NCBI GenBank assembly: GCA_020348305.1
Contig: CP070746.1
Coordinates: 2,413,704-2,461,279, forward strand
Direction: 5' to 3'
Source of the DNA: Desulfobacterales bacterium
GTDB lineage: Bacteria > Desulfobacterota > Desulfobacteria > Desulfobacterales > JAHEIW01
Length of the DNA: 47,576 nt
Shown piece after piece: positions 1 through 22,566 of the stretch. The position numbers and the translations under genes are program-made. The first letter of the stretch is position 1, and the number at the start of each line of letters is the position of its first letter. Below the pieces are notes generated by a model. The model was not told the origin of the DNA, ran no database searches, and saw only the letters and a list, made by a program, of their open reading frames with translations.

Positions 1-185
1 GCCTCTCTAATAGACTGTCGGCTGATTCCAAGCTCTGATGCCATTTCGCGCTCAGAGGGGATTTTGTCACCGGGTTTTAATTGCCCGTTGCTGATCAAAG
101 AAACAATTTGTTTGTAAACCTCATCGGATATTTTCCTCGTTTTGATGGGAAAGAATAATTTTGTAGCTTCTTTATTTTTTGCCAA
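1..185 (-). CDS. GntR/FadR-family transcriptional regulator, N-terminal part
   Basis: The 3' end lies outside the window; 61 codons are visible. The visible part is a winged-helix DNA-binding domain of the GntR family: residues such as VYKQIVSLISNGQLKPGD, then IPSEREMASELGISRQSIRE, the classic GntR recognition-helix region. The start is a TTG at 185, preceded by GGAGG with about 6 bases spacing. The effector domain is not visible, so FadR versus another subfamily is an inference from the helix-turn-helix sequence. It lies downstream of and co-directional with a sugar ABC transporter operon, so it probably responds to the transported sugar or a breakdown product and may also control the divergent oxidoreductase cluster. 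Family call is firm; ligand is unknown. Confidence 0.88.
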   Translation of the reverse strand, partial: MAKNKEATKLFFPIKTRKISDEVYKQIVSLISNGQLKPGDKIPSEREMASELGISRQSIRE

Positions 186-203
186 AATGGATCCTCCTGC
201 TAG

Positions 204-241
204 AACCCAATTGAGTAGAAAAACCCTCAATTGGGTTTTTT
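204..241. terminator. 12-bp perfect hairpin between permease gene and gntR
   Basis: AACCCAATTGAG (204-215) pairs perfectly with CTCAATTGGGTT (226-237), with a 10-base loop, followed on the plus strand by more T. On the plus strand this is an intrinsic-terminator shape. Both flanking genes are read on the minus strand, where no T tail follows and the gntR Shine-Dalgarno starts just after the stem. On that strand it is better read as an mRNA-stability or attenuating hairpin that separates transporter and regulator expression. Confidence 0.6.
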
Positions 242-248
242 AAACTCA

Positions 249-1091
249 TCAGCCTTTCATTGCTCCTGCTCCCCAGCCGGCGATTAAATAGCGCTGGACG
301 AAGACAAAAAACACGAGGACGGGTACGGTGATCAGCATACTGCCGGCCATAATCATTCCCCAGTCGATCACTGTGGCATTATAAAGATCGGCGATTCCGA
401 CCGACAGCGTTTTCAACTCATCGGATGTGATTAAAATTCTGACAAAAATGTAATCGTTCCACGCTAAAATAAACGTGAAGATGCTTGTGGCTATGATTCC
501 GGGGAATGCAAGCGGTAAAATCACATAAATAACTGCCTGGATTCTTTTGGCCCCATCGATCAAGGCGGCTTGCTCCAATGCTATGGGTATGCTCTGGAAA
601 AAAGCTCTCAGCAGCCACAAACTGAAGGGAAGACAGAAGGCGGTGTAGGCCATGATCAACGCAACGTGAGTGTTGGCCAGTCCCAATTTTTTGATCAATA
701 CATAAAATGGAATCACAATCATGATCGGGGCAAACATATACGTGAATAAAATGAGGCTTGCGATCTTTTCACGACCGTAAAATTTGAAACGGGTCAGGCT
801 ATACGCTCCGGCAGATCCAATGGTGATGGTAAGCAAAACCGTGCATGCCGAGACGAACACGCTGTTTCTAAAATAGGTTAAAAACCGGGTTTGCTCAAAA
901 AGTCTATCGAAGTTGGCCAAAGTAAAATCCTTGGGTAAAAAATACGGAGGAGAAACAAATATCTCCTGTAAGGGTTTAAAGGAGGTGGAAATCATCCAGA
1001 AAAAGGGGAAGGCCGTAGAAATTGTCAAAACAGCGGCACACCAATAAATAAACTGCCCCCGAAAAGAAAAAAAATTATTTTTGGGTTTCAA
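249..1091 (-). CDS. CUT1-type sugar ABC transporter permease (MalG-like)
   Basis: Inner-membrane permease of 280 residues, the usual length of MalG-type subunits. A first transmembrane helix lies near residues 13-33, and about five more follow. The EAA loop that docks the ATPase is visible as EQAALIDGAKRIQAVIYVILP around residues 171-191. The start is a TTG overlapping the TGA stop of the upstream permease (TTGA), which implies translational coupling. It is the last transporter gene before gntR. The family imports sugars or polyols with a binding protein, a second permease and an MsmK/UgpC-type ATPase; the substrate cannot be read from sequence. Confidence 0.93.
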   Translation of the reverse strand: MKPKNNFFSFRGQFIYWCAAVLTISTAFPFFWMISTSFKPLQEIFVSPPYFLPKDFTLANFDRLFEQTRFLTYFRNSVFVSACTVLLTITIGSAGAYSLTRFKFYGREKIASLILFTYMFAPIMIVIPFYVLIKKLGLANTHVALIMAYTAFCLPFSLWLLRAFFQSIPIALEQAALIDGAKRIQAVIYVILPLAFPGIIATSIFTFILAWNDYIFVRILITSDELKTLSVGIADLYNATVIDWGMIMAGSMLITVPVLVFFVFVQRYLIAGWGAGAMKG

Positions 1092-1975
1092 ATTTCTTCT
1101 TCCCTTCTGAACATCTTAAAATAAATTGCCGTGGAAATAATTAAAATTAAAAACATGATAACCGCCAGTGTCGATCCCAACCCCGCCTGATAATACATAA
1201 ATGTCCGCATATAGGCGTATACGGGCAGTGTCCGGATATACTTTTCCGCCCCACCTCCCTGGGTGAGGAGCCAGACCGTGTCAAATTTGGTAAACATCCA
1301 TATGCTTCTCAACAGGATCACAACAAAAAGCACATTTCGCAATTGAGGAAGGGTGACATGAAAAAAGCGCCTAATGGGGCCGGCGCCATCCACCTGGGCT
1401 GCTTCATACAGAGTTGGCGGAATTGTCTGCATCCGGGCAAGAACACTCAAGACCACAAATGGGAAAAACTCCCACACGCTGATGATGATCAAAGACGTCA
1501 TAATGTGATCTTTTCCCATCCATGAAATCGGATCGTCAATAATACCGACCGCCATCATAAGGTAATTGACCAATCCGAATTGATTATTGAGGAGCCACTT
1601 CCAAAGAATAATGGCCACCACGGTGGGAATCACATAGGGGAAAAGTAGCACGCCGCGAACAAAATTTCTTCCTCGAAACGCCTCATTGACTATTAATGCG
1701 GCGATGATACCGAGAACAATTTGAAGTACAATTGTACTGACGGAATAAACCGTGCCGTACCAGATGCTCATCCAGAAATCAGAGTTTGTCATCAAGTAAA
1801 TATAATTGGCAAGGCCCACAAATTTTTGTCCCGGAAAAAAAGAGTGCTTCTTAAAAAAACTGAGCCAAACGCCATATAGCACCGGGTAAACCAGCAGAGA
1901 AAAAATTAAAAGAATCGCAGGGGAAATCAAAATGATGCCTGTTTTTTGAGCGCTGAGTTTCAATTTCAAGCCCAT
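1088..1975 (-). CDS. CUT1-type sugar ABC transporter permease (MalF/UgpA-like)
   Basis: Inner-membrane permease of 295 residues. It has an N-terminal membrane helix (residues about 13-35), a periplasmic stretch, and five further helices. The EAA loop appears as YEAAQVDGAGPIRRFFHVTLP around residues 190-210. It pairs with the MalG-like subunit through a 4-bp stop/start overlap. Upstream of the ATG there is no clear Shine-Dalgarno, and 135 bp separate it from the binding-protein gene. That spacing is common in this family, where the binding protein is made in excess. Substrate is unknown. Confidence 0.93.
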   Translation of the reverse strand: MGLKLKLSAQKTGIILISPAILLIFSLLVYPVLYGVWLSFFKKHSFFPGQKFVGLANYIYLMTNSDFWMSIWYGTVYSVSTIVLQIVLGIIAALIVNEAFRGRNFVRGVLLFPYVIPTVVAIILWKWLLNNQFGLVNYLMMAVGIIDDPISWMGKDHIMTSLIIISVWEFFPFVVLSVLARMQTIPPTLYEAAQVDGAGPIRRFFHVTLPQLRNVLFVVILLRSIWMFTKFDTVWLLTQGGGAEKYIRTLPVYAYMRTFMYYQAGLGSTLAVIMFLILIISTAIYFKMFRREEEI

Positions 1976-2110
1976 TTATTTAATATTACGTTCTTGTTTT
2001 TGGAAAACTGTAGATATGAGTGTGATTAGTTCACTTTCAAGGTTAATCCGGGAAGTGAACAAGGACGGGAGCCTGGGAAAATACTCCCGTCCCTTTCACC
2101 AACCATCATT

Positions 2111-3466
2111 TTACCATTTGGCGTAACCTCTATCCTTTACGAGTTCCTCGGCCCTTTTTTGGGCTTTGGCTGTGGCTTTTTCCGGTGCAACATTTTCCTT
2201 GGTTACTTCCATGACCATGTCTTTCAGTATTCCGGAACCCAGAATTTCCATAAGATATGGTTTGCCGGCCATATCCTCCCAGTCGACAACCAGCGTCGGC
2301 TTCACCAGGTCGTTGTCGAGATAATATTCCTGCACATCCAGCCAGCCCTTCCATTTTTTAATCATCGGGGTCGCGTGGTATGCACTGCTCTTTCTCAGGG
2401 ATTTGGTTATCGGGAAGAAATGAATGGGTACCGTTTGAATGTACTCGAGGTAATTTTCATCTTTATAAAAGAACTTCAAAAATTCAATGGCCTCTTTGGG
2501 ATATTTGCAACCTTTAAAAAGCATCCAGGGTTCCTCATCCACCTGAGCGGCCGGTTTGGTGCCACTGGGTCCATGAGGTTTGATCCAGACATCAAAATAA
2601 TCGGTATTGGCCATATTTGCAGGTGCATATTGCTCGATCAAGGAAGCACCTCTCCCGTATCCCTGATACATCATGGCGGCCTTTTTACCATACATATTGG
2701 CAAAGGTCTCACGGTATCCATGCCCTTCCCAACCCGGAGGCATATACTTGGTCAGTTCTTTCAAGAAATTCAAGATTTGGATCATTTTCTTATCCGTAAA
2801 ACGGGGCCGATTCCGATCATCAAAAAGGATGCCTCCGTTGGCCTTGGTGAGTTCTCCCATGAGGATGTTAATGAACAGATTGTCACCGGGTATGGTCAAC
2901 CCATATATATCGACTTTACCGTCACCGTTGGTATCCATGGTCAACTCTTTGGCATTATGCAGGAGATCATCCCATGTCTTGGGATTCTTCAGACCTTTCT
3001 TGTTGGCCAGATCCTTGCGGTAGACCAGCAAAGAGGTGCCGGCGGCGTGAACCAGACCATAGTAATGATCCCCGTATTTGCCGACTTTCTTTATCTGATC
3101 CCAGATGTTGTCCTCTCCAATGGCTTTGACCACATCATCTAAAGGCAGGAGCAACCCTTTCTCGTGAAGTGCTGCACAGGTGATGGGTTGGCCATGGGAG
3201 AGTTCCGGCGGGGAACCCGCTGCCAAAGCAGCCATAATTTTTCCTTCCAGATCACCCCATGCAAGCGCCTCAGCCTCCACTTTGATATCCGCATGCAGCG
3301 CCTCGAACCTTGCCACGATGTTGGCAATCGCTTCCCGTGATTTTGGATTTGTCTCGGTATGCCAGACGTGAATGACCTTTTTTGCTGCCAGGGCCGTACT
3401 GCCTAAGATCAACGAAAAAAGACATACGAAACCAATAATCATGATTAATTTCTTTTGCATCTTCAT
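2111..3466 (-). CDS. Extracellular sugar-binding protein of the ABC importer
   Basis: Periplasmic solute-binding protein (451 residues) of the family-1 type, typical for CUT1 sugar importers. Residues 1-27 are a signal peptide (lysines, hydrophobic core, cleavage near ALA-A). The mature start KVIHVWHTETNPKSREAI is the usual first beta strand and helix of this fold. A GGAGG with good spacing precedes the ATG. It is the first gene of the transporter operon. The nearest relatives by feel are UgpB/MalE-like proteins, but the binding-site residues do not allow a ligand to be named. No ATPase gene is visible nearby. Confidence 0.92.
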   Translation of the reverse strand: MKMQKKLIMIIGFVCLFSLILGSTALAAKKVIHVWHTETNPKSREAIANIVARFEALHADIKVEAEALAWGDLEGKIMAALAAGSPPELSHGQPITCAALHEKGLLLPLDDVVKAIGEDNIWDQIKKVGKYGDHYYGLVHAAGTSLLVYRKDLANKKGLKNPKTWDDLLHNAKELTMDTNGDGKVDIYGLTIPGDNLFINILMGELTKANGGILFDDRNRPRFTDKKMIQILNFLKELTKYMPPGWEGHGYRETFANMYGKKAAMMYQGYGRGASLIEQYAPANMANTDYFDVWIKPHGPSGTKPAAQVDEEPWMLFKGCKYPKEAIEFLKFFYKDENYLEYIQTVPIHFFPITKSLRKSSAYHATPMIKKWKGWLDVQEYYLDNDLVKPTLVVDWEDMAGKPYLMEILGSGILKDMVMEVTKENVAPEKATAKAQKRAEELVKDRGYAKW

Positions 3467-3487
3467 TATTTTCCCTCCTTTCCTTTC

Positions 3488-3509
3488 TCAGGCATAAATT
3501 TTAGCCTGA
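3488..3509. promoter_or_regulatory. Inverted repeat in the leader of the binding-protein gene
   Basis: TCAGGC (3488-3493) and GCCTGA (3504-3509) flank an AT-rich centre, giving a 22-bp near-palindrome about 20 bp upstream of the start codon, just before the Shine-Dalgarno. Position and shape fit an operator or an mRNA hairpin for the ABC operon. A second, weaker palindrome, AAGGTTTTAAACCTT, lies at 3603-3617. Which regulator binds is unknown. Confidence 0.4.
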
Positions 3510-3776
3510 ATGCTGTGCTCCCCTGAGTGAAATCTAAGGTGAGCCGGTAGATTAAACCACTACCTGTTAAAGCAGATAGATTTTTTGTCCGACTGAAAGG
3601 CAAAGGTTTTAAACCTTGCGAATGGAAAAATAAAAAATTGATCTTGCGTTTTGGCCGCTTTGTTATCACCCCCCTTTTTCGTAAGTGTTTACAGGTTCAG
3701 CGTTCAGCGTTCAGCCTGCGACGAAGCTCAGCCGAGTCGGGTTATCTTAACTCTTATATGAAACTACATTCATTTA

Positions 3777-3890
3777 GACAGGATTATCAGGATTTTTTGG
3801 GTTTAGTATCGCTATATCCTGTCCATCCTGCCTGCCAGGGCGAAGCCCCGCCGGGGCGGGGCGAAGACTGGTTGATCCTGTCAGAAAATG
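3777..3890. repeat. Degenerate ATCCTGT-type repeat with GC-rich insert
   Basis: The left flank carries CAGGATTATCAGGATTTTTT and the right flank carries ATCCTGTCCATCCTG and later TTGATCCTGTC. These are inverted and direct words of a low-complexity extragenic repeat. Between the right-hand words sits a GC-rich block at about 3828-3870 containing GCCCCGCCGGGGCGGGGC, which can fold back on itself. Base composition jumps sharply inside the block, which suggests an element nested in an older repeat. Confidence 0.5.
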
Positions 3891-3916
3891 AAAAGTTCAT
3901 GCCGTTAAGTTTTTTG

Positions 3917-3965
3917 TTCGATCAAACTGGCCGCTTGGCGGCCAGCGGCTGAGCTAAACCCTGAA
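3917..3965. repeat. Dispersed hairpin repeat, copy 1
   Basis: Stem CTGGCCGC (3927-3934), loop TTG, stem GCGGCCAG (3938-3945), preceded by TTCGATCAAA and followed by CGGCTGAGCT and AACCCTGAA. The same order of words recurs at 35380-35428. Both copies are intergenic. Confidence 0.6.
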
Positions 3966-4052
3966 GCTCTGAACCCGTGAACGGTGACCTTTCTTCTTGG
4001 TGCGCATATTCCGACACCTTAGAATCAAAATGATCTTCAGGTTGAATCCGAT

Positions 4053-5972
4053 CTATAGTTTAACAGCAACCTCCTCTGCCTCATAAACGGCATCCACAAC
4101 TTCGCGGGGTTCTACGGCATCACCGATCAGGTATATTTCCGCTACTTTTCCCTCAAGTTGCTTGTAAAGTGTGTCATTGGGCGTCGAACCCACAGCCAAA
4201 ACGATGGTGTCGAACCCGTTCAACCTTCTAATCCCTGAAGCATCCTCCACCATGGCATAATCCTTTCCCAGCTCCAGCACCCGCGAAGACGTCACGATTT
4301 TAACCCCCTTTTCCTTTAGCCTCTGCCCAAGATAGTGCTGCAGATGAGTCACCAGGTCCAATGCAATATTCTCCAGCATCTCGACCAACGTAACCTCTTT
4401 TCCCATCTCAGATAAAAAATCGGCTATTTCGGCTCCGGAGCCGCCACCCCCGATTACCAGGATCTTTTGTCCGATTTCGGTTCCATCGGACAACACATCA
4501 TCCACAGAGAGGGCCTTGCTCTCTTTGACTCCCTTCCAATCCGGAAGTTGTGCCCGAGCTCCCGTAGCAACAATCACTGCATCCGGCTTTTCTTCATCCA
4601 GAATGTTCTCGGTGAACGCCTGGCCCATTTGAAGGGTTACCCCCAGAGTTTTTGCTCGTCTCTCTAAGTAATCAAGAAATTCGTTATATACGGCTTTTCT
4701 CGGCGGATTCGCCCCGAGTCTCATTCTTCCACCGGTTCGATTGTCTTTTTCGAAGACTTTCACCTGATGGCCCCGCAACGCTGCTACTTCGGCAGCTTTA
4801 AGTCCCCCGGGCCCGGCTCCCACCACCCATACCTGCTTGGATAGATCGGCTTTTGAAAATCTAAATTGCCCTTCATTTCCCGTTTCCGGATTAACAGTGC
4901 ATCGAACCGAATCTTTCCGCATGGTCTGGACACACTTGTTGCAGGAGATACAGGGAATAATTTCATCGAATCGCCCCTTTTTTGCTTTGTTCGGCAGGTG
5001 AGGATCTGCGATCAAAGCCCGCCCCATAGATATCATATCGGCTTTTCCCTCTCCGATGACTTGATCTGCCATCGCAGGATGTCTGATTCTGCCCACCGCA
5101 ATCACCGGAATATTTACCTCATATTTGATGGCCTGAGCCAGATGGACAAAAACTCCTTCTTCCACATAATAGGGAGGGTGATTGAGGTAGCCTGAAGCTG
5201 CATTACAGGCTGATATATGCAGTGCGTCGGCGCCTGCCTTTTCCAGAAATTTAGCGATCTGTTTGGTTTCTTCTATTCTCAACCCTCCCTCGACATATTC
5301 ATCGCCACTTAATCTACAGATAATGGGGAAATCAGGCCCGAGCTGGTTGCGGACGGCTTTTAAAACCTCCAGAGGAAACCGAGCCCTGCCCTCAATGTCT
5401 CCGCCATATTGATCTTTCCTTTGGTTGGAAAACGAAGACAGAAAAGAGCAAAGCAGGTATCCATGGGCCATATGAAGTTCAACACCGTCAGCGCCGGCGT
5501 TTTTGACCCGTTCAGCGGCCACGGCATATGCTTCGGTGATTTCCTCTATTTCGCTAACGGAGAGCTCACGGGGAGTTTCCATTATCGGGGTAGCGGGTAT
5601 GGCAGAAGGTCCCACGATGGGTGATCCCGTCACTTTTGAAAAGGTCTGTCGGCCGGCATGATTAATCTGGACCACTATTTTTCCTCCTGCTTCATGGACA
5701 GATTCAACCAACTTATGAATATGGACAGCGTGCTCATCGGTGCTGATCAGCAGCATCTTCGGGCTTGCTTTACCCTGCTGAAGTATGCCGGTGTGCTCGA
5801 CATTCATATATCCAACACCCCCTTTGGCACGTTCAACATAATAGTCGATCTGGCGTTGGGTTACAAAACCTTCGGGTGAAGCGTAATTTGTGGCCATAGG
5901 GGGCATCACAAGTCTGTTGTCCACTTTTAACGTTCCGATTGCAAATGGGCTAAAAAGGTTTTCTAAGGCCAT
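4053..5972 (-). CDS. NADH:flavin oxidoreductase / 2,4-dienoyl-CoA reductase-type flavoenzyme
   Basis: Cytosolic 639-residue flavin and iron-sulfur enzyme. Residues 1-330 form an Old Yellow Enzyme TIM barrel (FMN site, VQINHAGRQ near 100, conserved HMAHGYLLCSFLS near 167). Next is a 4Fe-4S motif, CISCNKC near 341-347 plus a Cys about 11 residues later. Then comes a FAD/NAD(P) half with VVGAGPGGLKAAEVAALRG near 380 and a second dinucleotide motif, VIGGGGSGAEIADFL. This layout is known from 2,4-dienoyl-CoA reductase, trimethylamine dehydrogenase and 2-enoate reductases; the true substrate is open. The start is set by GGAGGTG before the ATG; the stop is TAG. It is divergent from the iron alcohol dehydrogenase and likely belongs to the same pathway. 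Confidence 0.92.
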   Translation of the reverse strand: MALENLFSPFAIGTLKVDNRLVMPPMATNYASPEGFVTQRQIDYYVERAKGGVGYMNVEHTGILQQGKASPKMLLISTDEHAVHIHKLVESVHEAGGKIVVQINHAGRQTFSKVTGSPIVGPSAIPATPIMETPRELSVSEIEEITEAYAVAAERVKNAGADGVELHMAHGYLLCSFLSSFSNQRKDQYGGDIEGRARFPLEVLKAVRNQLGPDFPIICRLSGDEYVEGGLRIEETKQIAKFLEKAGADALHISACNAASGYLNHPPYYVEEGVFVHLAQAIKYEVNIPVIAVGRIRHPAMADQVIGEGKADMISMGRALIADPHLPNKAKKGRFDEIIPCISCNKCVQTMRKDSVRCTVNPETGNEGQFRFSKADLSKQVWVVGAGPGGLKAAEVAALRGHQVKVFEKDNRTGGRMRLGANPPRKAVYNEFLDYLERRAKTLGVTLQMGQAFTENILDEEKPDAVIVATGARAQLPDWKGVKESKALSVDDVLSDGTEIGQKILVIGGGGSGAEIADFLSEMGKEVTLVEMLENIALDLVTHLQHYLGQRLKEKGVKIVTSSRVLELGKDYAMVEDASGIRRLNGFDTIVLAVGSTPNDTLYKQLEGKVAEIYLIGDAVEPREVVDAVYEAEEVAVKL

Positions 5973-6036
5973 TTTTCACCTCCGAAAATACAGTGTTTGG
6001 GGGGTTAAAACATTTGGTAACGAAATCGGGTTGGAC

Positions 6037-6061
6037 GAGTGGTCTGACCATTGGACCACTC
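6037..6061. promoter_or_regulatory. Candidate GntR/FadR-type operator
   Basis: TGGTCTGACCA (6040-6050) is a perfect palindrome around one base and matches the TGGTNNNACCA pattern known for FadR-type GntR regulators. It sits inside a wider inverted repeat, GAGTGGTC (6037-6044) with GACCACTC (6054-6061). A FadR/GntR-type gene lies at the left window edge. Caution: GGACCACTGACCAC-type words also occur as plain repeats near 7550, so this may be repeat DNA instead. Confidence 0.4.
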
Positions 6062-6278
6062 GGTAACATTTTGGTTGTGCATAGTCAAGCAATAATTGAT
6101 CATTTGGTTGTCGAAAACTTAATCATAATGAACGATTAGATTTGGTGTTTGAAATTTGGGATTTTTAAGTCAGTTCTTCAGCCATTGGCTGTTATTCTGC
6201 GAATTCTTCTTGCAAGTAACCCATTATTCCAAACACCAAACACCCAAATACCAAATACTCCTCCAGTTTAAAAAAGCC

Positions 6279-6315
6279 TTGACATGTCAATCAAAAAGCT
6301 TGATTAAATTGTCAA
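6279..6315. promoter_or_regulatory. Overlapping divergent promoter pair
   Basis: Plus strand: TTGACA at 6279-6284, 17 bp, GATTAA at 6302-6307, aimed at the iron alcohol dehydrogenase. Minus strand: TTGACA at 6315-6310, 17 bp, GATTGA at 6292-6287, aimed at the flavoenzyme. The two share the same DNA, which is near-palindromic, so they should exclude each other. The -10 boxes are only partial matches to TATAAT. Sigma-70 type is inferred. Confidence 0.5.
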
Positions 6316-6371
6316 TAAGAGATTTCATAATTTCAGAAAAGGTTTCCATGACATAAGGAGGGGAGGACAAC

Positions 6372-7526
6372 ATGCCAGCTCGATATGAATTTAATATTTC
6401 CACCCGAATTGTTTATGGCCGGAATGCCGCCGCGCAGATGGGTGAAATTGCCGGCGGATTCAACTTGAAAAAAATACAGCTGATTACTGATAAGGGAGTC
6501 GCCAATTCAGGTACGCTAGAATTTCTGCTGAGGCCCCTGAAAGACGCAGGCATCGCTGCGATCATCTATGATGATGTGGAATACAATCCTACGGTTCAAA
6601 CTGTCGATAAAGCCGCCCAGCAATTTAGGGATGAGGCCTGTGAGGGGGTAATCTCAGTGGGTGGCGGCAGCCCAATTGATGCCGGCAAATGTGTAGGCGT
6701 GCTGGCCACCAATGCCGGATCGGCTTCTGATTATTTAGGCATAGACAAGGTTAAAAACCCTGCTGTACCGGTCATATGCGTGCCAACCACCGCTGGTACA
6801 GCGGCCGAAATTACGGATGTCGCCGTGTTAAACGATCCCACCAAAAAACAGAAAATGGGCATGCGCAGCCCGCATGTGGCCGCTGCTGTGGCAATGCTGG
6901 ACCCGGTGCTCACCCTCACCCTGCCCCCGGAGCCGACCCGGGATTCCGGTCTGGATGCGCTGACCCATGCCATTGAATCCTATATCAGCGTCAATGCCTG
7001 GAGAGTAACCGATACTTTAAATCTAAAAGCCATTGAATTGATTGGCCGCTATCTTCGCACCGCCGTTCACAACGGCAATGATATCGAAGCGCGCGATGGA
7101 ATGCTGACGGCCAGTTTGTTGGCCGGAATGGGATTTCATCACACAAAACTTTGCCTGGTGCATGCCATTACCCTTCCGTTTGGAGGTATTTACAACGTGC
7201 CCCATGGGGTCAGCAATGCGATCGTCTTACCCCATGCAATGAAATTCATGCTGCCCGGGGCAGTGTCCAAATATGTGGATATTGCCATGACGTTGGGCGA
7301 AGATGTTTCGGGCATGTCGGAACGGGCAGCGGCGGAAAAAGCGGTAGAAGCTGTAGAACAATTATCAAATGACGTGAACTTACCCACAGGCTTGGCTCCG
7401 TACGGAGTCAAGGAAGAAGATCTGCCGAAATTATCAGAATCCATTGCAGACAATTTCATGGTACCGCTCTCTCCGAGGATCGCCAAAGCCGAAGATATTC
7501 TGGAAATTTGTAAAGCAGCCATGTAA
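6372..7526 (+). CDS. Iron-containing (group III) alcohol dehydrogenase
   Basis: NAD(P)-dependent alcohol/aldehyde interconversion in the cytosol; 384 residues, the normal length. The nucleotide motif SVGGGSPIDAGK is at about residues 96-107. The metal site is visible as SGLDALTHAIESYIS (Asp and His about residues 198-202) and the two later histidines in LVHAITLPFGGIYNVPHGVS. The start follows GGAGGGGAGG. It heads the plus-strand cluster that continues with an AOR 64 bp downstream. The likely role is to make or remove the aldehyde handled by the AOR; the alcohol is unknown. Related families include 1,3-propanediol and lactaldehyde dehydrogenases. Confidence 0.94.
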   Translation: MPARYEFNISTRIVYGRNAAAQMGEIAGGFNLKKIQLITDKGVANSGTLEFLLRPLKDAGIAAIIYDDVEYNPTVQTVDKAAQQFRDEACEGVISVGGGSPIDAGKCVGVLATNAGSASDYLGIDKVKNPAVPVICVPTTAGTAAEITDVAVLNDPTKKQKMGMRSPHVAAAVAMLDPVLTLTLPPEPTRDSGLDALTHAIESYISVNAWRVTDTLNLKAIELIGRYLRTAVHNGNDIEARDGMLTASLLAGMGFHHTKLCLVHAITLPFGGIYNVPHGVSNAIVLPHAMKFMLPGAVSKYVDIAMTLGEDVSGMSERAAAEKAVEAVEQLSNDVNLPTGLAPYGVKEEDLPKLSESIADNFMVPLSPRIAKAEDILEICKAAM

Positions 7527-7590
7527 AAATCTTCTTCCGACAGACAACGGACCACTGACCACGGACTACTTACATGATAGGAGGTGACCC

Positions 7591-9489
7591 ATGGCCTACG
7601 GGAATTGGGGACGGATACTGAGAATCAATTTAAGCACGCAAGAAATCAGTGTCGACGCACACGATGATAAATTTTACCGTACCTATTTAGGCGGTAAAGG
7701 CATTGTGTCGCATTATCTGTTGAAAGAAATACCGCCGGGTTGCGATCCATTGGGTCCCGATAACGTTCTGGTTTTTGCTGCCAGTGTATTAACCGGAACG
7801 GCGATTCCAGGCTCGGCCCGCAACAGCGCAGGCGCGAAATCGCCGCTCACCGGCGGATATGGCGAAGGCGAAGGCGGCGGCCATTGGGGAGTCAGATTGC
7901 GCTGGGCGGGATACGATGGCGTAATAGTCAGCGGTCAATCGGAAAAACCCGTCTATCTCTGGATCAACAATGATACGGCTGAACTTCGAGATGCCTCCAA
8001 ATTGTGGGGATTGGAGGCCGATGAAACCCAGGAAGCCATCCGCAATGAGGTCGGGGACGAGAAGGCAACCGCGGCCATGATCGGACCCGGTGGAGAACGC
8101 CTCATTCGATATGCCTGCATTGCTCTGGGGTTACACGATTTTATCGGCCGGTCCGGATTGGGAGCCGTCATGGGTGCCAAAAAATTAAAAGCCATCGCCG
8201 TGAACGGAAATACACGACCGGAGGTGGCACATAAGGAAGGAATCGCCGAAATTGCCCGCTGGTTGCGTGATAATTATGAAGCATCTTTGGGGACTATGAC
8301 AGAAATGGGCACCGCGCGTGCAGTGCCGCTTTTTAATTCCGCCGGTGCGTTTCCAACCCGCAATTTTCGCGAAGGCAGTTTTGAAGAATATGAAACGTTA
8401 GCCGGTCGTTACATGACGGATAACATTCTGGTAGATCGATCAAGCTGCTATGCCTGCCCGGTGCATTGCAAGCGGGTGGTAGAGGTCAACGAAGAGGATA
8501 TGATGGTTAGCCGCAGATATAGCGGCCCCGAGTATGAAAGTATCGGCGCTTTCGGATCAAACTGCGGCGTGGGCGATCTCAAGGCTGTGGCAAAAGCCAA
8601 TGAGATCTGTGATGCCAACACCCTGGATGTCATCTCTGCCGGAGTTATGATATCCGGGGCTATCGAATGTGCCGAACGGGGATTATTACCGACAGATCTT
8701 ATCCAGAATCTCGATTTGAAGTTCGGCTCCGCTCAGGGGATGTTGGATCTTTTGAACCAAATCGTCAACCGTAAAGGGTTGGGAGATATTCTGGCAGAAG
8801 GCCCACAAGGAATAGCGGATAAGTTAGGCAAAGAGGCGGCCTCCTATTTTTTTCATGTGAAGGGTCAACCGTTACCGCTGCATGAACCTCGCTGGAAAAC
8901 CGGAATGGGAATCGGCTTTGCGCTTGCCGCAACCGGTGCCGAGCACATGACCAATATCCATGACAATATGTATGCCAGTGAAGAAGCTCCCACATTTACC
9001 GCGGCGCAACATCTGGGAATTCTGGATCCGGTGGAGACCTCCGAGCTCAGTCCGAACAAAGCCAGAGTGTGGGTCTATATGATGCTCAACCGGTCGATTA
9101 ATAATAGCGCCTGTATCTGCTCGTTTATGCCCTACAGTTTTGATCACATTATAGAGCAGGTGAAATGCGTCACCGGTTGGAATGTGTCCGGCTGGGAGTT
9201 AATGAAAGTATCGGAGCGATCGATTAATCTGGCCCAGGCCTTTAATACCCGCGAAGGTTTCACTTCGGAAGATGATATTTTACCGGATCGCTTTTTCCAA
9301 CCTATAGAGGGCGGCGCCCTTAAAGGACAAACCATGGATCGTCAGCAGTTCTATGAGACGCGCAACATGATCTATGATATGCTTGGCTGGGACCGTCAAT
9401 CAGCGGCTCCAAAGCGCTGGAAACTATATGAGCTCGGATTGGACTGGGTGGTTGAGGATTTAGAAAAACAAGGAATCTTAATAGATTGA
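7591..9489 (+). CDS. Aldehyde:ferredoxin oxidoreductase family protein (AOR1)
   Basis: Tungsten- or molybdenum-pterin enzyme that oxidises an aldehyde to a carboxylate with ferredoxin; 632 residues, full length. The N domain starts GRILRINLSTQ. The Fe-S cysteines are C286, C289 and C293 (CYACPVHC), and the first pterin motif is DANTLD at 341-346. The second pterin/cluster motif, normally DxxGxC, reads NSACIC at 505-510, with Asp replaced by Asn and Gly by Cys. C510 keeps the fourth cluster ligand position. The C-terminal family signature FNTREGFTSEDDILPDRFF is intact. A strong AGGAGGTG precedes the ATG. The stop overlaps the start of a MoaD-like gene. Substrate specificity is not readable. 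Confidence 0.94.
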   Translation: MAYGNWGRILRINLSTQEISVDAHDDKFYRTYLGGKGIVSHYLLKEIPPGCDPLGPDNVLVFAASVLTGTAIPGSARNSAGAKSPLTGGYGEGEGGGHWGVRLRWAGYDGVIVSGQSEKPVYLWINNDTAELRDASKLWGLEADETQEAIRNEVGDEKATAAMIGPGGERLIRYACIALGLHDFIGRSGLGAVMGAKKLKAIAVNGNTRPEVAHKEGIAEIARWLRDNYEASLGTMTEMGTARAVPLFNSAGAFPTRNFREGSFEEYETLAGRYMTDNILVDRSSCYACPVHCKRVVEVNEEDMMVSRRYSGPEYESIGAFGSNCGVGDLKAVAKANEICDANTLDVISAGVMISGAIECAERGLLPTDLIQNLDLKFGSAQGMLDLLNQIVNRKGLGDILAEGPQGIADKLGKEAASYFFHVKGQPLPLHEPRWKTGMGIGFALAATGAEHMTNIHDNMYASEEAPTFTAAQHLGILDPVETSELSPNKARVWVYMMLNRSINNSACICSFMPYSFDHIIEQVKCVTGWNVSGWELMKVSERSINLAQAFNTREGFTSEDDILPDRFFQPIEGGALKGQTMDRQQFYETRNMIYDMLGWDRQSAAPKRWKLYELGLDWVVEDLEKQGILID

Positions 9490-9815
9490 CTAACCCGCAA
9501 GGAACAAGTAATAAAAAAGATCGGCAGCAGATAATGGTGCACGTCAAACTCTCTGATTTCCTTTCCAGGATAGTATCGGAGGCGGAATTTGATGTAGAAA
9601 TAAATGCAGGCTCCACAATTTCGGATTTTATCAGTGTTCTAATAGAGGGTCTTGGAGCAGAATTTCGCAAGGCAATCGTGGACCGCAACGGCAAGCTTCA
9701 CGGTGGTATTGCCGTAATTCTGAATAAACGATTTATACCACCCCAGCAAATCGAAGAACACACTATTTCTCAAAAAAGCAACCTGAGTATTATTCCAATC
9801 GCTGGGGGAGGATAA
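9486..9815 (+). CDS. MoaD/ThiS-like ubiquitin-fold protein
   Basis: Small beta-grasp protein of 109 residues ending in IAGGG. The C-terminal Gly-Gly is the hallmark of MoaD and ThiS sulfur carriers, which are adenylated and thiocarboxylated to feed molybdopterin or thiamine synthesis. Such genes often sit beside AOR genes and are thought to serve the tungsten cofactor. The frame opens at a TTG overlapping the AOR stop (TTGA). An ATG at 9534 (MVHVKLSDFL) fits the domain start better, but neither has a strong Shine-Dalgarno. Function as a dedicated sulfur carrier for the AOR cofactor is inferred. Confidence 0.8.
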   Translation: MTNPQGTSNKKDRQQIMVHVKLSDFLSRIVSEAEFDVEINAGSTISDFISVLIEGLGAEFRKAIVDRNGKLHGGIAVILNKRFIPPQQIEEHTISQKSNLSIIPIAGGG

Positions 9816-9924
9816 GACTCCGGGCACAATCCGAAGTGATCGTCCCGCAAAAAAAAACTTTCTTTACTTCCAAAATAAACTGATTCAAATCTGAAGCTAA
9901 TTTTTTGAAGAGGAATAGATCGTC

Positions 9925-10896
9925 ATGGCTAAATACAAAGTCGTAGTTGTCAGCCTAGGTTATGAAACCTATGACTATGAACGCGAAATTTTAAAACCGA
10001 TAGATGCAGAAGTTACCCTGACGCCTAAAGATTGCACCACCGAAGATGAGGTGATTGAGGTTGCCAGAGCTGCAGATGCCATTTTGGTGCGGGAGACACC
10101 GATCGGAGCCAAGGTTATTGAGTCTTTTGACCGCTGCAAGATTATTGCCCGTTACGGTGTCGGGATTGATAACATCGACCTTGAATGTGCCCGCCAAAAA
10201 AAAATCTATGTGAGTAACGTACCGGATTACGGAACGGAAGATGTGTCCGATCACGCGGTGGCATTGCTTCTTGCCTGCATCCGAACCCTTCTGGTGCGAG
10301 ACCAGAATCTGCGTAAGGGAATCTTCGAAACCGACATCAAAGACGAAATCTATCGCACCACCGGAAAGAATCTTGGAATTATCGGATACGGCAAGATTGC
10401 CAGAGCGGTTCATCGCAAATGGAAAGGCTTTTTACCCGGAAGCGTATTGGTCTATGATCCATTTGTGGATGCTGATGAAATAGCAAAAAATGGCGGTGAA
10501 AAAGTGGATCTGGATACTCTGCTAGCTGCATCGGACTATATTACGCTGCATACGCCGTTGACTTCGGAGACACAGCATATCATTGGTGAGACCGCATTGA
10601 AGAAAATGAAAAAAACAGCCATCCTTGTCAACACTTCCCGCGGTGCTGTGATCCACGAAGACGCTTTGGTTAAAGCACTTGATGAGGGAGAGATTCTAGC
10701 CGTCGGTTTAGATGTCTTCGAAAATGAACCTATCGGTAAAGATCATCCGCTGGTCAGCATGTCCAATGTGATATTGACCAGCCATGTGGCCTGGTTTTCC
10801 AAGGATTCTGCTAGAGATTTACAAACTGGAGCTGCCGGAGAGATCCTGCGGGTTCTATCGGGGAAACCACCTGTAAATTGGGTGAATCCCTGGTAA
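9925..10896 (+). CDS. D-isomer-specific 2-hydroxyacid dehydrogenase (CtBP/SerA-like)
   Basis: NAD-dependent reduction of a 2-keto acid or oxidation of a D-2-hydroxyacid; 323 residues. The Rossmann motif is LGIIGYGKIARAVHRKW near 147-163. The catalytic set is present: Arg in VNTSRGAVIHEDAL, Glu in DVFENEP and His in LTSHVAWFS. It lacks an ACT domain, so it is not a full regulatory SerA. GAGG lies upstream of the ATG. Placed between the AOR/MoaD pair and a zinc dehydrogenase, it probably handles a sugar-acid or hydroxyacid intermediate. A short decayed copy of its 5' end is seen at 12678-12710. Confidence 0.92.
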   Translation: MAKYKVVVVSLGYETYDYEREILKPIDAEVTLTPKDCTTEDEVIEVARAADAILVRETPIGAKVIESFDRCKIIARYGVGIDNIDLECARQKKIYVSNVPDYGTEDVSDHAVALLLACIRTLLVRDQNLRKGIFETDIKDEIYRTTGKNLGIIGYGKIARAVHRKWKGFLPGSVLVYDPFVDADEIAKNGGEKVDLDTLLAASDYITLHTPLTSETQHIIGETALKKMKKTAILVNTSRGAVIHEDALVKALDEGEILAVGLDVFENEPIGKDHPLVSMSNVILTSHVAWFSKDSARDLQTGAAGEILRVLSGKPPVNWVNPW

Positions 10897-11030
10897 ATTT
10901 TTATAGCATAAATCTTAACCCAGACAAGCCGGAAATTCGAAGCACGAAATACAAAATTGGAATTTTTATTGCCACAAAAGGACAAGAATGATTCTTAAGC
11001 GCCTAAGAAGATTATGGAGTATTGCAAAAA

Positions 11031-12047
11031 TTGAAAGCCCTAAGATATTTAGCGCCCGGTGTGTTGAAGACCGAAGAAATTAAAGAACCGCTTTGCGGAA
11101 AAGATGAGGCCCTAATTCGGGTGCATTCGGCGGGAATATGCGGCACCGATATGGCGATTTTCGCCGGCAAACATCCCAGGGCCAAAGCGCCTTTGGTGCT
11201 GGGTCACGAATTTGCCGGCGAGATTATCGAAATAAAATCGTCAGATATTCATACAAAACTGGCTGTAGGCGACAAAGTTACGGTTTACCCGCTTCTGGTA
11301 TGCGGAAAATGTTGGGCCTGTAAAAACGGTTTCAGTCATGTTTGCCGCGATCTGAAACTTATCGGCATCGATCGTGACGGTGGATTCGCGGAATATGTAA
11401 ATGTACCCCTGGATCTAATCGTTAAATATCCCGAAGACTTGACATATAACCAGGGAGCATTGATTGAACCCCTGGCTGTAGCCGTCCACGCCCTGGAAAT
11501 GGCCGGAGTGCCCGATTGGCAGACGGCGGTGGTAGTCGGTTGCGGCCCTATCGGATTATTGGTCGGCTTGTGCCTTAAACACTCAGGCACTGAAGCGATC
11601 ATATTAAGCGATATTAATGCCCACCGGCTAGAGCGAGCTGAAAATCTGGGTTTCCGGACCTTCAATAGTTCTGAGGGTGAGCTGGTGCAATTGGTTAACG
11701 AGATTACGCAGCAAGAAGGTGCGGATATCGTCTTTGAATGTGCCGGATCAAGCTCCGCCGCGCTTCAGATGTGTGAACTGATCCGGCCCCGGGGTAAAGT
11801 GATCATGGTCAGCGTTCACAAAGAACCGCATCCGGTGGATCTGCGTGCGGTTAGTTTCAAAGAAATCACGATGATTGGTACCCGTGTTTATGCCCGTAAC
11901 AGTTATCAGAAGGCCTTGCAGATGGTCAAAGATCTCCCCTCTGATAAACTTATATCCCATAAACTCGCTATTGATAATGCTGCGGAAGGGTTTGAATTAA
12001 TGCAGAAACCGGAAGATGTCTGCAAAGTTATCATCAACACATCCTAA
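11031..12047 (+). CDS. Zinc-dependent medium-chain alcohol dehydrogenase
   Basis: Cytosolic NAD(P)-dependent oxidation of a sugar alcohol or other secondary alcohol (sorbitol/threonine dehydrogenase-like). The catalytic zinc residues are the Cys in GICGTD, the His-Glu pair in GHEFAGE and the later conserved Glu in IEPLAVAVH. The structural zinc site is CGKCWACKNGFSHVC. The cofactor motif is VVGCGPIGLLVGLC. I chose the TTG at 11031 (MKALRYLAPG), the usual start of this family, with GGAG about 11 bases upstream; a TTG at 11022 is in frame but too close to the GGAG. Last plus-strand gene of the cluster. Substrate unknown. Confidence 0.9.
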   Translation: MKALRYLAPGVLKTEEIKEPLCGKDEALIRVHSAGICGTDMAIFAGKHPRAKAPLVLGHEFAGEIIEIKSSDIHTKLAVGDKVTVYPLLVCGKCWACKNGFSHVCRDLKLIGIDRDGGFAEYVNVPLDLIVKYPEDLTYNQGALIEPLAVAVHALEMAGVPDWQTAVVVGCGPIGLLVGLCLKHSGTEAIILSDINAHRLERAENLGFRTFNSSEGELVQLVNEITQQEGADIVFECAGSSSAALQMCELIRPRGKVIMVSVHKEPHPVDLRAVSFKEITMIGTRVYARNSYQKALQMVKDLPSDKLISHKLAIDNAAEGFELMQKPEDVCKVIINTS

Positions 12048-12131
12048 TTCATTGAGTTAATAAACTGCTTAGTAACTGCAATTATTGTCACCCGACAACC
12101 AGCCGCTATATTTGATGGTTTTTTAAGTATC

Positions 12132-12593
12132 TCATCTACTATCCCATTCAACAGCGACCTTTATGACCACCTTATGTATAAAATCATCTGTCCCTAAGGG
12201 CGCATGAACATCTTCAGGAAAAAATATGGCAAAACTTCCTGCCGGAACAGGCAGCCACGTGGTCGGTGAATTAGAGTAAAATTCAATATCCGATTCAGAA
12301 TCATACCCATTCTCATCAGGAATACAGTTAGACTTGATTTCATAGCCAATGAAATCGGAACCCGCTACGGTATACTGAATATCAATATATCGCCGATGGG
12401 ATTCAAGCCTTGCATCTCGCCTACCTTTTCCTTTGGTTGTCATTGCTAATGCGAATAGTCGCTCTCCATCTAGTCGATCTTTGCCTTCTTTAAATTCGTT
12501 AAGTGAACTTTTTTCAAAAAAATTAAAAGCAGTTTCGAATCCAGGATGAAGCGGTGCATAGCGCAAAGAGTTTTCAAGACGATCTAATATCAT
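12132..12593 (-). CDS. YhcH/YjgK/YiaL family protein
   Basis: A 153-residue single-domain cupin-like protein. The conserved family stretches ESHRRYIDIQYTVAG and FAIFFPEDVHAPLG (histidine, glutamate and aspartate ligands of a probable metal site) are present. Known members lie in sialic acid, 2,3-diketo-L-gulonate and other sugar operons and are thought to act on sugar anomers or isomers. GGGAG precedes the ATG. It converges with the dehydrogenase cluster and supports a sugar or sugar-acid substrate for the whole region. Exact reaction is unknown. Confidence 0.9.
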   Translation of the reverse strand: MILDRLENSLRYAPLHPGFETAFNFFEKSSLNEFKEGKDRLDGERLFALAMTTKGKGRRDARLESHRRYIDIQYTVAGSDFIGYEIKSNCIPDENGYDSESDIEFYSNSPTTWLPVPAGSFAIFFPEDVHAPLGTDDFIHKVVIKVAVEWDSR

Positions 12594-16133: not shown

Positions 16134-17222
16134 ATGAAAACCAAAAGAATCTTCAACTTCAATCCTGGTCCGGCTGCCCTACCCATCAGCGTGCTCGAAG
16201 AAATCCGGGAATCCTTTTTGAATTTTATGGGAACGGGCATGTCGATAATGGAGATCAGTCATCGATCAAAAGAATTTGATGACGTCATCAATGACGCGGT
16301 TGCCAGAACAAAACGACTGTTGAATTTGAAAGACAATTATCATGTGCTCTTTTGCCAGGGCGGAGCCAGTTTGCAGTTTCATATGATTGCCTTAAATTTT
16401 CTTGCGGATGGAAAATCCGCAGACTACATCAACACCGGAACATGGTCGACGAAAGCCATTAAAGAGGCTCAAATTCTCGGCCGATCAATTCAGGTGGCGG
16501 CTTCCTCCGAGGATAAAAATTTTTCGTACATTCCGAAGCATATTCAGTTCAGCAAAGATGCTGTGTTTGTACATATCACCTCCAATAACACGATTAAAGG
16601 CACCCAGTGGGCCGCATTTCCCGCTACTGGTAACATTCCTATTTTTTCAGATATGTCCTCGGATATTATGAGCCGGCCGTTGGATATTGGGAAGTTTGGT
16701 CTGATCTATGCCGGAGCGCAAAAAAATATCGGGCCTGCCGGCGTGTGCCTGGTGATTATTCGCAACGATATGCTGGAAATGATACCCGATAACTTGCCAT
16801 CCATGCTCAATTATAAGACCTATGCGTCCAAAAACTCGTTGTTCAATACCCCACCGTGTTTTGCTATATATACGGTGCAACTTGTTTTAAAGTGGCTGGA
16901 AGAAACAATCGGCGGTCTTGAAAAGATGGAGGCACTGAACCAGAAAAAAGCGCACCACCTCTACAATTTTATTGATGCCAGCAACTTTTACCGGGGAACA
17001 GCAGAACCTGCCAGCCGCTCATTAATGAACATTACCTTTCGCCTTCCCAATGAGGAGCTCGAAAAAAAAATTGTCCAGGAAGCACTGGAAAACGGACTCG
17101 GCGGTCTCAAAGGACATCGTTCCGTTGGTGGATGCAGGGCCTCTATCTACAATGCAACTTCTATCGAAGCTGTCGAATCATTGGTGGATTTTATGGCAAA
17201 CTTTGAAAAGAAAAACGGATAG
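16134..17222 (+). CDS. serC: Phosphoserine aminotransferase
   Basis: PLP enzyme converting 3-phosphohydroxypyruvate and glutamate to phosphoserine and 2-oxoglutarate; also acts in vitamin B6 synthesis in some bacteria. 362 residues, the normal length. It starts FNFNPGPAALPISVLEEI; the family motif LFCQGGASLQF is near 72-82, and the PLP lysine is K197 in YAGAQKNIGPAG. The end RASIYNATSIEAVESLVDFM is intact. GGAGGGG precedes the ATG. The stop is TAG. A normal-length end at TAG shows that TAG is a real stop in this genome. Confidence 0.97.
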   Translation: MKTKRIFNFNPGPAALPISVLEEIRESFLNFMGTGMSIMEISHRSKEFDDVINDAVARTKRLLNLKDNYHVLFCQGGASLQFHMIALNFLADGKSADYINTGTWSTKAIKEAQILGRSIQVAASSEDKNFSYIPKHIQFSKDAVFVHITSNNTIKGTQWAAFPATGNIPIFSDMSSDIMSRPLDIGKFGLIYAGAQKNIGPAGVCLVIIRNDMLEMIPDNLPSMLNYKTYASKNSLFNTPPCFAIYTVQLVLKWLEETIGGLEKMEALNQKKAHHLYNFIDASNFYRGTAEPASRSLMNITFRLPNEELEKKIVQEALENGLGGLKGHRSVGGCRASIYNATSIEAVESLVDFMANFEKKNG

Positions 17223-17574
17223 AACCGGTTTCATAACCCCATTTTGTGTCCGATGTTCCACCTTGGCGGGACAGCCCAACGCAATCCCGCCAGAGCAGGA
17301 TTTACGAGGCCGTCATTTTTAGTTTTACTTGACATTACGGATCAATACGAATAATGATATTCTATACAGAACGACATAAATCATTGCGCATACATACCCA
17401 GCGTTTTGCATGTTTGACCCAATACGGTAGTTTTAGAATCAACGATTCAAAGGGCGAATACGCAATTTATTAAGGCGCTGTGTATAATAACATCTCATCA
17501 GTATCAGATGGCGATTAACGGTTTTCAGATTTAGTTACCTTTCTTGCAACATTCACGACAAAAGGAGGTTTTTT
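17223..17574. other. Intergenic region between serC and AOR2
   Basis: No gene is seen. It holds a GC-rich inverted repeat, TGGCGGGA (17264-17271) with TCCCGCCA (17285-17292), without a clear T tail. Downstream is a possible promoter, TTGACA at 17329-17334 with TAATGA at 17352-17357 (17-bp spacer), about 220 bp before the AOR2 start, giving a long leader. Confidence 0.5.
17329..17357 (+). promoter_or_regulatory. Possible AOR2 promoter
   Basis: Perfect TTGACA, 17-bp spacer and a weak -10 box TAATGA. It is the only good -35 in the gap before the AOR2 gene, but the implied leader of about 210 bases is long. Confidence 0.35.
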
Positions 17575-19317: not shown

Positions 19318-19346
19318 TTGAACTAATAGATGGTTAGGGACAGATT

Positions 19347-19374
19347 GGGAGACCTGCAAAGGTCTCCCCATTTT
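19347..19374 (+). terminator. Intrinsic terminator after AOR2
   Basis: GGGAGACC, a TGCAAA loop, GGTCTCCC, then CATTTTATT. An 8-bp perfect GC-rich stem with a short T tail, about 30 bp after the AOR2 stop. Some read-through could reach the next gene 23 bp on. Confidence 0.85.
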
Positions 19375-19396
19375 ATTGCGCAAAAGATAATTTATT

Positions 19397-20062
19397 ATGG
19401 AAAAGCAGATTTCCATGGAAAATCTTAATCAATCAAAAAGTCTCAATTCAACAACTCATCCTCTCGGCATGCAACTTTGCATGATTGTCCAGGCTGATGT
19501 TTTAGCGCTTTTCTTTAGACTGCTATCACAAGGTTTTGCGGTTACTGTTCAACCAGGCTGCAGCATCAGGGACTTGCTTTGCCTCCAACTTGGCATTCGA
19601 GAGGAATATCTAGATGAGAGAATCCAGACCATTTTTTTAAACGGCAACGCTGTAGATGATGTCGATTCAACCATCGTGGAAAACGATGCAATACTGGCAC
19701 TTTCCGGCGCCATGCCCGGCCTTGCTGGGGCTACCCTGCGCAAAGGGGGTATATTAGCGACGATGCGCAATAGCATTTCTCATAAAAATGATATGGCGTC
19801 TACTCCGCACACTGGAAAAACAGTCATCATTAAATTTTTTAACCTGGTTACCAAAGATCTGGGGCCATCCTTTATTCAACAAGGTGTGTGGTTGAGAGCA
19901 AAACAGCTTCATGATTTTGTCGCTTCCAACTTAGAAATATTAGAGAGAGGATGTAAGTCAGCAAAATTAGATGGTCAGGATATAAAAGTAAATCAGATCT
20001 TGGGTATCGATTTTGGTGATAATTTGGTGAATCTAAAACTTAAGACCGAATCGAAATCTTGA
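19397..20062 (+). CDS. Two-domain ubiquitin-like (MoaD/ThiS-type) protein next to AOR2
   Basis: 221 residues, no firm family. Residues about 45-118 look like a beta-grasp sulfur-carrier domain: VTVQPGCSIRDLL, a FLNGNAVDDVDSTIVENDAILALSG hairpin region, and an end AMPGLAGATLRKGG with Gly-Gly at 117-118. In MoaD/ThiS the Gly-Gly is the C-terminus; here about 103 residues follow. Residues about 140-216 (VIIKFFNLV ... LGIDFGDNLVNLKLK) may be a second beta-grasp unit. Start is ATG 19397; ATG 19415 is possible, and neither has a Shine-Dalgarno. It probably serves the AOR2 cofactor or binds AOR2, but the terminator in between argues for separate or attenuated expression. Confidence 0.7.
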   Translation: MEKQISMENLNQSKSLNSTTHPLGMQLCMIVQADVLALFFRLLSQGFAVTVQPGCSIRDLLCLQLGIREEYLDERIQTIFLNGNAVDDVDSTIVENDAILALSGAMPGLAGATLRKGGILATMRNSISHKNDMASTPHTGKTVIIKFFNLVTKDLGPSFIQQGVWLRAKQLHDFVASNLEILERGCKSAKLDGQDIKVNQILGIDFGDNLVNLKLKTESKS

Positions 20063-22557: not shown

Positions 22558-22566
22558 GAAGCAGCA

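Follow-up and report, generated by a model that had tools for sequence, protein, structure and literature searches.

Several described systems resemble parts of a gene locus that we analysed in a window of 47,576 nucleotides (nt) from a Desulfobacterales bacterium (assembly GCA_020348305.1, contig CP070746.1, positions 2,413,704 to 2,461,279 of the forward strand). The locus combines a sugar-type importer, a GntR regulator and an OYE/FeS flavoenzyme (OYE) on the minus strand with an iron alcohol dehydrogenase (FeADH), an AOR-family oxidoreductase (AOR), a MoaD/ThiS-like protein, a D-isomer 2-hydroxyacid dehydrogenase (HADH) and a zinc alcohol dehydrogenase (ZnADH) on the plus strand. Class I tungsten oxidoreductases (WORs), built of WorL with a ThiS-like WorX, share with this AOR both AFOR domains, the cluster cysteines and the catalytic Glu and His, as far as the accessible part of PMC13328260 describes them. 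An adjacent ThiS-like protein is also shared, and the gaps within the block are too short for the gene of a small FeS subunit. In contrast to those enzymes, the AOR sits here in an importer-linked dehydrogenase block. According to the accessible part of the same paper, in only five of 92 WOR clades has a physiological role been defined for any member. For another WOR, Eubacterium limosum served there as the W-handling host.

The other counterparts concern regulation and sugar metabolism. GntR switches of the LldR/PdhR type (FadR subfamily) involve the same regulator family (GntR plus FCD) and the box TGGTCNGACCA (PMC10272880, accessible part), whereas the predicted target here would be an importer with dehydrogenases of unassigned substrate. 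The Escherichia coli ycj cluster likewise joins a sugar-type ABC importer to sugar dehydrogenases (accessible part of PMC11543891); in contrast, the present locus has no Gfo/Idh, epimerase or phosphorylase gene. KDG/KDPG (uronate and sugar-acid) operons contain HADH relatives, and a GarL/HpaI-like aldolase gene follows ZnADH in a genome of the same genus, whereas dehydratase, KDG kinase and KD(P)G aldolase genes are found only in loci of relatives and not between 249 and 12593. Finally, a ferredoxin-linked step from glyceraldehyde to glycerate is known from a non-phosphorylative Entner-Doudoroff branch (PMC2063504, accessible part). The shared idea is that an aldolase product is oxidised to a 2-hydroxyacid with ferredoxin, whereas the case in the accessible part of that paper comes from hyperthermophilic archaea and our block has neither KDG aldolase nor glycerate kinase. 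No published description of this gene set was found in the open-access literature.

Our preferred reading, which we hold with slightly less than even confidence, is that the locus probably encodes a single regulated route for using a sugar or sugar acid, with the AOR-MoaD pair as an optional part. The AOR is probably an optional add-on, because a related genome carries the locus without it. All seven genes that a preliminary description had named between 4053 and 12593 were open and matched their stated families. On the minus strand, the flavoenzyme (4053 to 5972; PF00724 and Pyr_redox_2) is FadH/BaiCD/NCR-like. The plus-strand block starts with FeADH (6372 to 7526), which resembles lactaldehyde reductase and methanol dehydrogenase and has the motifs DALTHAIE, LVHA and PHG. 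It continues with the AOR large subunit (7591 to 9489; AFOR_N and AFOR_C), the WorX-like MoaD/ThiS protein (9534 to 9815; PF02597, C-terminus GGG, with an ATG at 9534 in a frame open from 9486), HADH (9925 to 10896; motifs GYGKIA, SRG, FENEP and SHVA) and ZnADH (11022 to 12047), a threonine 3-dehydrogenase/IolM-like protein with the motifs CGTD, GHE and CxxCxxCx7C. The intergenic gaps are 64, 44, 109 and 125 nt. A terminator scan found none on the plus strand between FeADH and ZnADH, and its five sites against 11.5 in shuffled sequences say little. All NCBIfam equivalog scores were below the curated cut-offs: lactaldehyde reductase (338.7 vs 523.15), threonine 3-dehydrogenase (228.8 vs 380), PGDH (240.3 vs 454) and IolM (194.2 vs 450).

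We compared this genome (G000) with one of the same genus (G001) and with four of the same order under other family labels (G072, G060, G069 and G310). Where their titles were known, the related genomes were MAG-type assemblies, several of them joined by runs of 100 N; completeness was 92% for G072 and 79% for G060. Conservation of gene order, on which the preliminary description had made its proposal depend, was found, as the five-gene order recurs in G001 and the set minus AOR and MoaD in G060. In G001 (stretch L042), order and strand are both kept, with identities of 84% for FeADH, 85% for AOR, 55% for MoaD, 79% for HADH and 84% for ZnADH. Two further 2-hydroxyacid dehydrogenases (HADH2 and HADH3) follow ZnADH on the same strand and enclose the GarL/HpaI-like aldolase, which scored 206-212 bits against the GarL/HpaI models, below their cut-offs. 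Between 8746 and 17951, L042 contains no N-run. One N-run ends 58 nt before the FeADH start and another begins at the HADH3 end, so that a branched-chain-type importer beyond HADH3 may not belong there. The G001 solute-binding protein (SBP; 90%) lies with permease 1 on a separate piece between N-runs.

Outside the genus, the divergent layout is retained. G072 (L048/L119) has DJ-1, SDR, GntR, the permeases, SBP and OYE divergent from FeADH-AOR, with identities of 92-93% for the permeases, 92% for SBP, 79% for OYE and 85% for FeADH, and 89% for the AOR over 193 residues, after which an N-run begins. Its permease 2 gene (L048, 2835-3674) contains one in-frame stop at codon 172, either real or an assembly error. 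G060 (L126) has an SDR, GntR, the permeases, SBP and OYE divergent from FeADH, HADH, an extra SDR, ZnADH and another SDR, with an FGGY kinase next on the opposite strand. Identities are 87% for the permeases, 87% for SBP, 73% for OYE, 80% for FeADH, 73% for HADH and 66% for ZnADH. AOR and MoaD are absent from this locus, whose only nearby N-runs (1675-1774 and 17190-17289) lie outside it, and the best AOR elsewhere in the genome is 46% identical. The order OYE-SBP-permease-permease-SDR was found in G069 (L169), which has a HADH relative (62%) on another contig (L172), and in G310 (L170), where an ATPase and DJ-1 follow and the contig ends 710 nt before OYE. Hence, importer and OYE stand divergent from FeADH in three families of one order; HADH and ZnADH follow FeADH in two of them and the AOR in two. 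In G000, G001 and G072, the three genomes in which this AOR comes after FeADH, the two genes are direct neighbours. OYE consistently accompanies the importer, adjoining this SBP in five of the six genomes, while the sixth (G001) is interrupted by an N-run.

The occurrence of close relatives agrees with an optional role of the AOR. Among 389 genomes of the class, own genome included and scanned with strict, unequal cut-offs, SBP was found in six (E<=1e-120, >=85% identity), HADH in eight (E<=1e-95) and AOR in three (E<=1e-190), counts that are not strictly comparable because the cut-offs differ. ZnADH was found in four of 116 relatives, own included (E<=1e-60). These counts, and the G060 locus with importer, GntR, SDR, OYE, FeADH, HADH and ZnADH but no AOR or MoaD, speak against the earlier description of the module as AOR-centred. 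A scan of the GTDB species collection with short exact peptides, which limits its reach, gave 34 AOR loci, and in three of them (L042, L043 and L048) the best segment exceeded 45% identity. Searches of predicted proteins, which carry no gene context, gave 413 SBP relatives (E<=1e-60) and 3350 AOR relatives (E<=1e-150; 8000 candidates scored), of which the best 120 each were listed.

The divergent promoter region contains TGGTCTGACCA (6040 to 6050, no strand assigned), a predicted operator of the GntR/LldR type conserved in three of three readable regions. The pattern TGGTCWGACCA occurs in the OYE/FeADH regions of G000, G072 and G060 at 68, 69 and 65 nt, respectively, from the OYE start; these regions differ over most of their length and have the block with the palindrome in common. 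In G310, a copy with one mismatch stands 65 nt before OYE. Within the window we found one site against a shuffle mean of 0.05. For regions as long as these, about 3e-4, 3e-4 and 8e-5 sites would be expected, although the three regions are not independent. This shared-promoter palindrome matches the published LldR box, given as AAnTGGTCnGACCAnTT in the accessible part of PMC10272880; the FadR consensus is quoted as AACTGGTCNGACCAGTT in the accessible part of PMC3626644. Complete GntR copies were seen in G072 (L119) and G060 (L126; 71% identical to the G072 copy). The G072 protein has the domains PF00392 (GntR) and PF07729 (FCD), and its closest models are LldR (145 bits, cut-off 311) and PdhR (143 bits), both below cut-off. 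In our window, only the first ~76 residues of the regulator (3 to 230, minus strand) remain, because the window starts right after a 100-N run (genome positions 2413604-2413703); the window DNA itself is without N. The GntR regulator that the preliminary description had placed beside the importer is thus present as an N-terminal fragment, with full copies in G072 and G060. Since an LldR box stands in the divergent promoter and the GntR protein is LldR/PdhR-like, the importer/OYE and FeADH blocks likely share a switch and are likely controlled together by one regulator. Synteny and palindrome support the proposal as far as it concerns a conserved catabolic locus that includes a sugar-type importer and is probably under common regulation.

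The minus-strand block consists of OYE, SBP (2111 to 3466), CUT1-type permease 1 (1088 to 1975) and permease 2 (249 to 1091), both PF00528, and the start of the GntR gene. An SBP of sugar-binding fold and two BPD_transp_1 permeases make up the CUT1-type importer claimed earlier, but the 33 window open reading frames (ORFs) scanned with Pfam (249 to 47322) included no ABC ATPase. To the extent that N-runs leave the G072 and G060 operons readable, no MalK-type ATPase appeared in them either, and the importer operon of G310 includes one ATPase with a MalK OB domain. The nearest solved folds of the SBP are 7v09 and YcjN (18-19% identity). Because many sugar-binding folds follow closely, we dropped a substrate assignment from the fold and take the SBP only as carbohydrate-type. 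A second importer cluster of the same genome (L118, G000:C1:2348500-2368400) has an SBP (34%), permeases (50-53%), a GntR (31%), a ZnADH (34%) and two SDRs, with an ATPase and CoA-type genes assigned by eye.

The AOR matches PF02730 with 248 bits and PF01314 with 364 bits. Its residues C286, C289, C293 and C510 align with positions 288, 291, 295 and 494 of PfAOR, which we take to be the [4Fe-4S] cysteines of that enzyme. The Fe-bridging residues are absent in this AOR, unlike in PfAOR. Thr243, Glu313, Tyr427 and His448 of PfAOR are listed for most aldehyde-oxidising members in the accessible part of PMC13328260, and three of these four are kept here (T241, E316 and H452). A ThiS-like protein is encoded nearby and no small ferredoxin-like WorS gene was seen among the neighbours FeADH, MoaD-like gene and HADH; the MoaD-like protein is probably a cofactor-assembly partner. 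A recent foreign origin of the AOR was considered and set aside, as its G+C content is identical to that of FeADH (0.512) and gives no compositional sign of it. AOR genes are common in G000, since 27 of 44 whole-genome matches span >=550 of the 632 query residues; internal stops interrupt three of the 27.

Other AOR genes stand in different surroundings. In a second G072 cluster (L121, G072:C1:1515000-1533000), a FeADH (68%) occurs with a TRAP importer, of which DctM was confirmed, an LDH2-type dehydrogenase, a KduD-like SDR, an epimerase-like gene, a DUF362-like gene labelled by eye, and an AOR fragment (72%) that ends at an N-run. A 104-aa protein precedes two G072 AOR copies (L120, 8087-8398; L121, 9477-9788), with 95 of 104 residues identical between the copies; the window, L042, L048 and L126 gave no match to it. 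In L043 (JAHJTB010000421.1), an AOR (59%) and a MoaD-like gene lie near two very large flavin/FeS proteins, HdrA-like by eye, and the stretch has no FeADH, HADH or ZnADH match. In L093 (G055:C118), an AOR lies close to a radical-SAM gene and a pair of OYE-like genes, which by eye resemble a group of the mycofactocin type. Labels given by eye or by similarity to a reference set include the TRAP genes beyond DctM in L121, DJ-1 in G310, DUF362, mycofactocin and HdrA-like.

A link to sugar acids comes from relatives of HADH. Two of them (63 and 59%) lie in KDG/KDPG-type operons (L173, G258:C9; L175, G115:C198) with RraA, a KDG-kinase-like PfkB and KDPG aldolase, and KduI is also present in L173. 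Elsewhere, HADH and ZnADH adjoin an MR_MLE gene (L171) or occur with PfkB (L127). The 2-hydroxyacid dehydrogenase of L173 and L175 appears to be a repeated member of KDG-type pathways at an unassigned step, and L174 looks alike by eye. Relatives of the G001 aldolase (87%) and of HADH3 also stand together in G000 (L117, G000:C1:1301500-1320500), near a second HpcH-like gene named by eye; a LarA-like reading of an L117 gene was dropped, as Pfam gave no match.

The preferred reading suggests the following route. The importer would bring in a sugar or sugar acid, and ZnADH, the SDR or SDRs and HADH would interconvert hydroxyl and keto forms of the imported compound. An aldolase encoded outside the window's block, such as the one after ZnADH in G001, could then split it into pyruvate and a 2-hydroxyaldehyde. 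FeADH might use NADH to reduce this 2-hydroxyaldehyde, or work in the opposite direction on a diol. In lineages with the AOR, that enzyme would instead oxidise the 2-hydroxyaldehyde to a 2-hydroxyacid with formation of reduced ferredoxin, and HADH, where present, could convert this acid to a 2-oxoacid. The GntR protein would bind the predicted operator and respond to a small hydroxy- or oxo-acid. From the preliminary description we retain, as an inference, the chain of import, oxidation to an aldehyde and AOR-catalysed conversion to an acid with ferredoxin reduction. A more specific version, which we consider rather unlikely, is that AOR-MoaD acts as a plug-in redox valve, inserted behind FeADH in a sugar-acid locus that is conserved in all other respects. 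Rather than serving as an NADH sink on its reduction to a diol, the aldolase-made 2-hydroxyaldehyde would then yield reduced ferredoxin and a 2-hydroxyacid for HADH to oxidise, with gene order equal to reaction order.

Several observations weigh against this reading and should be set beside it. No aldolase, dehydratase, sugar kinase or importer ATPase gene is present in the window's block (249-12593), and the relative of the G001 aldolase in our genome lies at 1.31 Mb next to a HADH3 relative, 1.1 Mb off. The KDG-operon context may not transfer, because the HADH proteins there are 59-63% identical and the fetched stretches have no close ZnADH or FeADH match. His431 of the AOR stands at the position of PfAOR Tyr427. 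A FeADH tree (five rows, one starred branch) does not separate gain of the AOR from its loss. In the G072 genome, the best ZnADH is 34% identical and no HADH was found at E<=1e-95, so that these two genes probably do not follow the AOR there and the second block may consist of FeADH-AOR only. Furthermore, some linkages may be artefacts, because several of the MAG-type assemblies are joined by 100-N runs. The fetched G069 stretch has neither operator site nor GntR, and no FeADH is adjacent to OYE there. Finally, TGGTCWGACCA is not enriched genome-wide (six sites in G000, five in G072 and one in G060) over the reversed control pattern (nine in G000, six in G001, six in G060, four in G075 and five in G072); the operator argument therefore rests on conserved position only. 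The five other TGGTCNGACCA sites in G000 are all inside ORFs, one close to an ORF start, and hence revealed no additional member of the regulon. Of the four other sites in G072, two were inspected, the first within an ORF and the second outside any long ORF; one of the two in G001 was inspected as well (in an ORF), and G075 has two.

A different explanation, which we regard as unlikely, is a dedicated AOR-centred pathway in which the AOR, with FeADH, is an essential step and G060 carries a degenerate copy. The adjacency of FeADH and AOR in G000, G001 and G072 speaks for it, as does the position of the AOR between the block's dehydrogenases in G000 and G001. In G072, moreover, no close HADH or ZnADH was found, and its second cluster L121 holds FeADH and the AOR fragment on one strand, 8 kb apart, which supports a working link between the two enzymes. 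However, G060 retains everything else at 66-87% identity, which implies that the rest of the locus is maintained without the AOR, and, at the cut-offs used, close relatives of the AOR are rarer in the class than those of the SBP. Still less probable is a 3-keto chemistry on glycosides or cyclitols, like that of the ycj cluster or of IolM-type systems, in which the AOR would oxidise a side product. The YcjN-like SBP fold and the IolM-like ZnADH resemble such systems, whereas the genes that distinguish the ycj cluster are lacking here.

We give a lower probability again to AOR-MoaD as a pair for the general detoxification of aldehydes, which arrived or persisted in the operon and has no step in the pathway. 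Characterised Class I WORs include detoxification enzymes (accessible part of PMC13328260), and the many AOR genes of G000 would also suit such a role. In contrast, the place after FeADH is kept in three genomes, and FeADH and AOR meet again in L121. That the genes lie side by side by chance and serve unrelated functions is strongly disfavoured and very improbable: these are common families, and AOR and alcohol dehydrogenase genes are numerous in the genome, but the order is repeated in other genera and families, and both palindrome and divergent layout are conserved.

If the redox valve exists, relatives that have the plug-in would obtain a different energy yield from the same imported substrate than those that lack it. 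It would also help to explain the dozens of AOR genes in some uncultured genomes of the order, as optional ferredoxin-yielding steps of carbohydrate loci. If it does not, the analysis still corrects the unit, as the most widely conserved part is the importer with OYE, followed by FeADH, HADH and ZnADH, and not the AOR. The locus gives one AOR group a concrete context, with a candidate operator, partner enzymes and a natural comparison with and without AOR.

Downstream of ZnADH, and convergent with it, lies the gene of a YhcH/YiaL protein (12132 to 12593, minus strand; PF04074), which we do not count in the module although the preliminary description had included it. No match to it was found in L042, L048, L126, L169 or L170; the ZnADH side is readable only in L042 and L126, and no match adjoins ZnADH in either. 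Further along the window, a second, distant AOR (580 aa) is followed by a 221-aa protein (17575-20062). The first half of that protein looks MoaD-like by eye, its C-terminus is not GG, and it has no Pfam or NCBIfam match. At 21616-23883, a DUF6206 protein adjoins a class-III aminotransferase.

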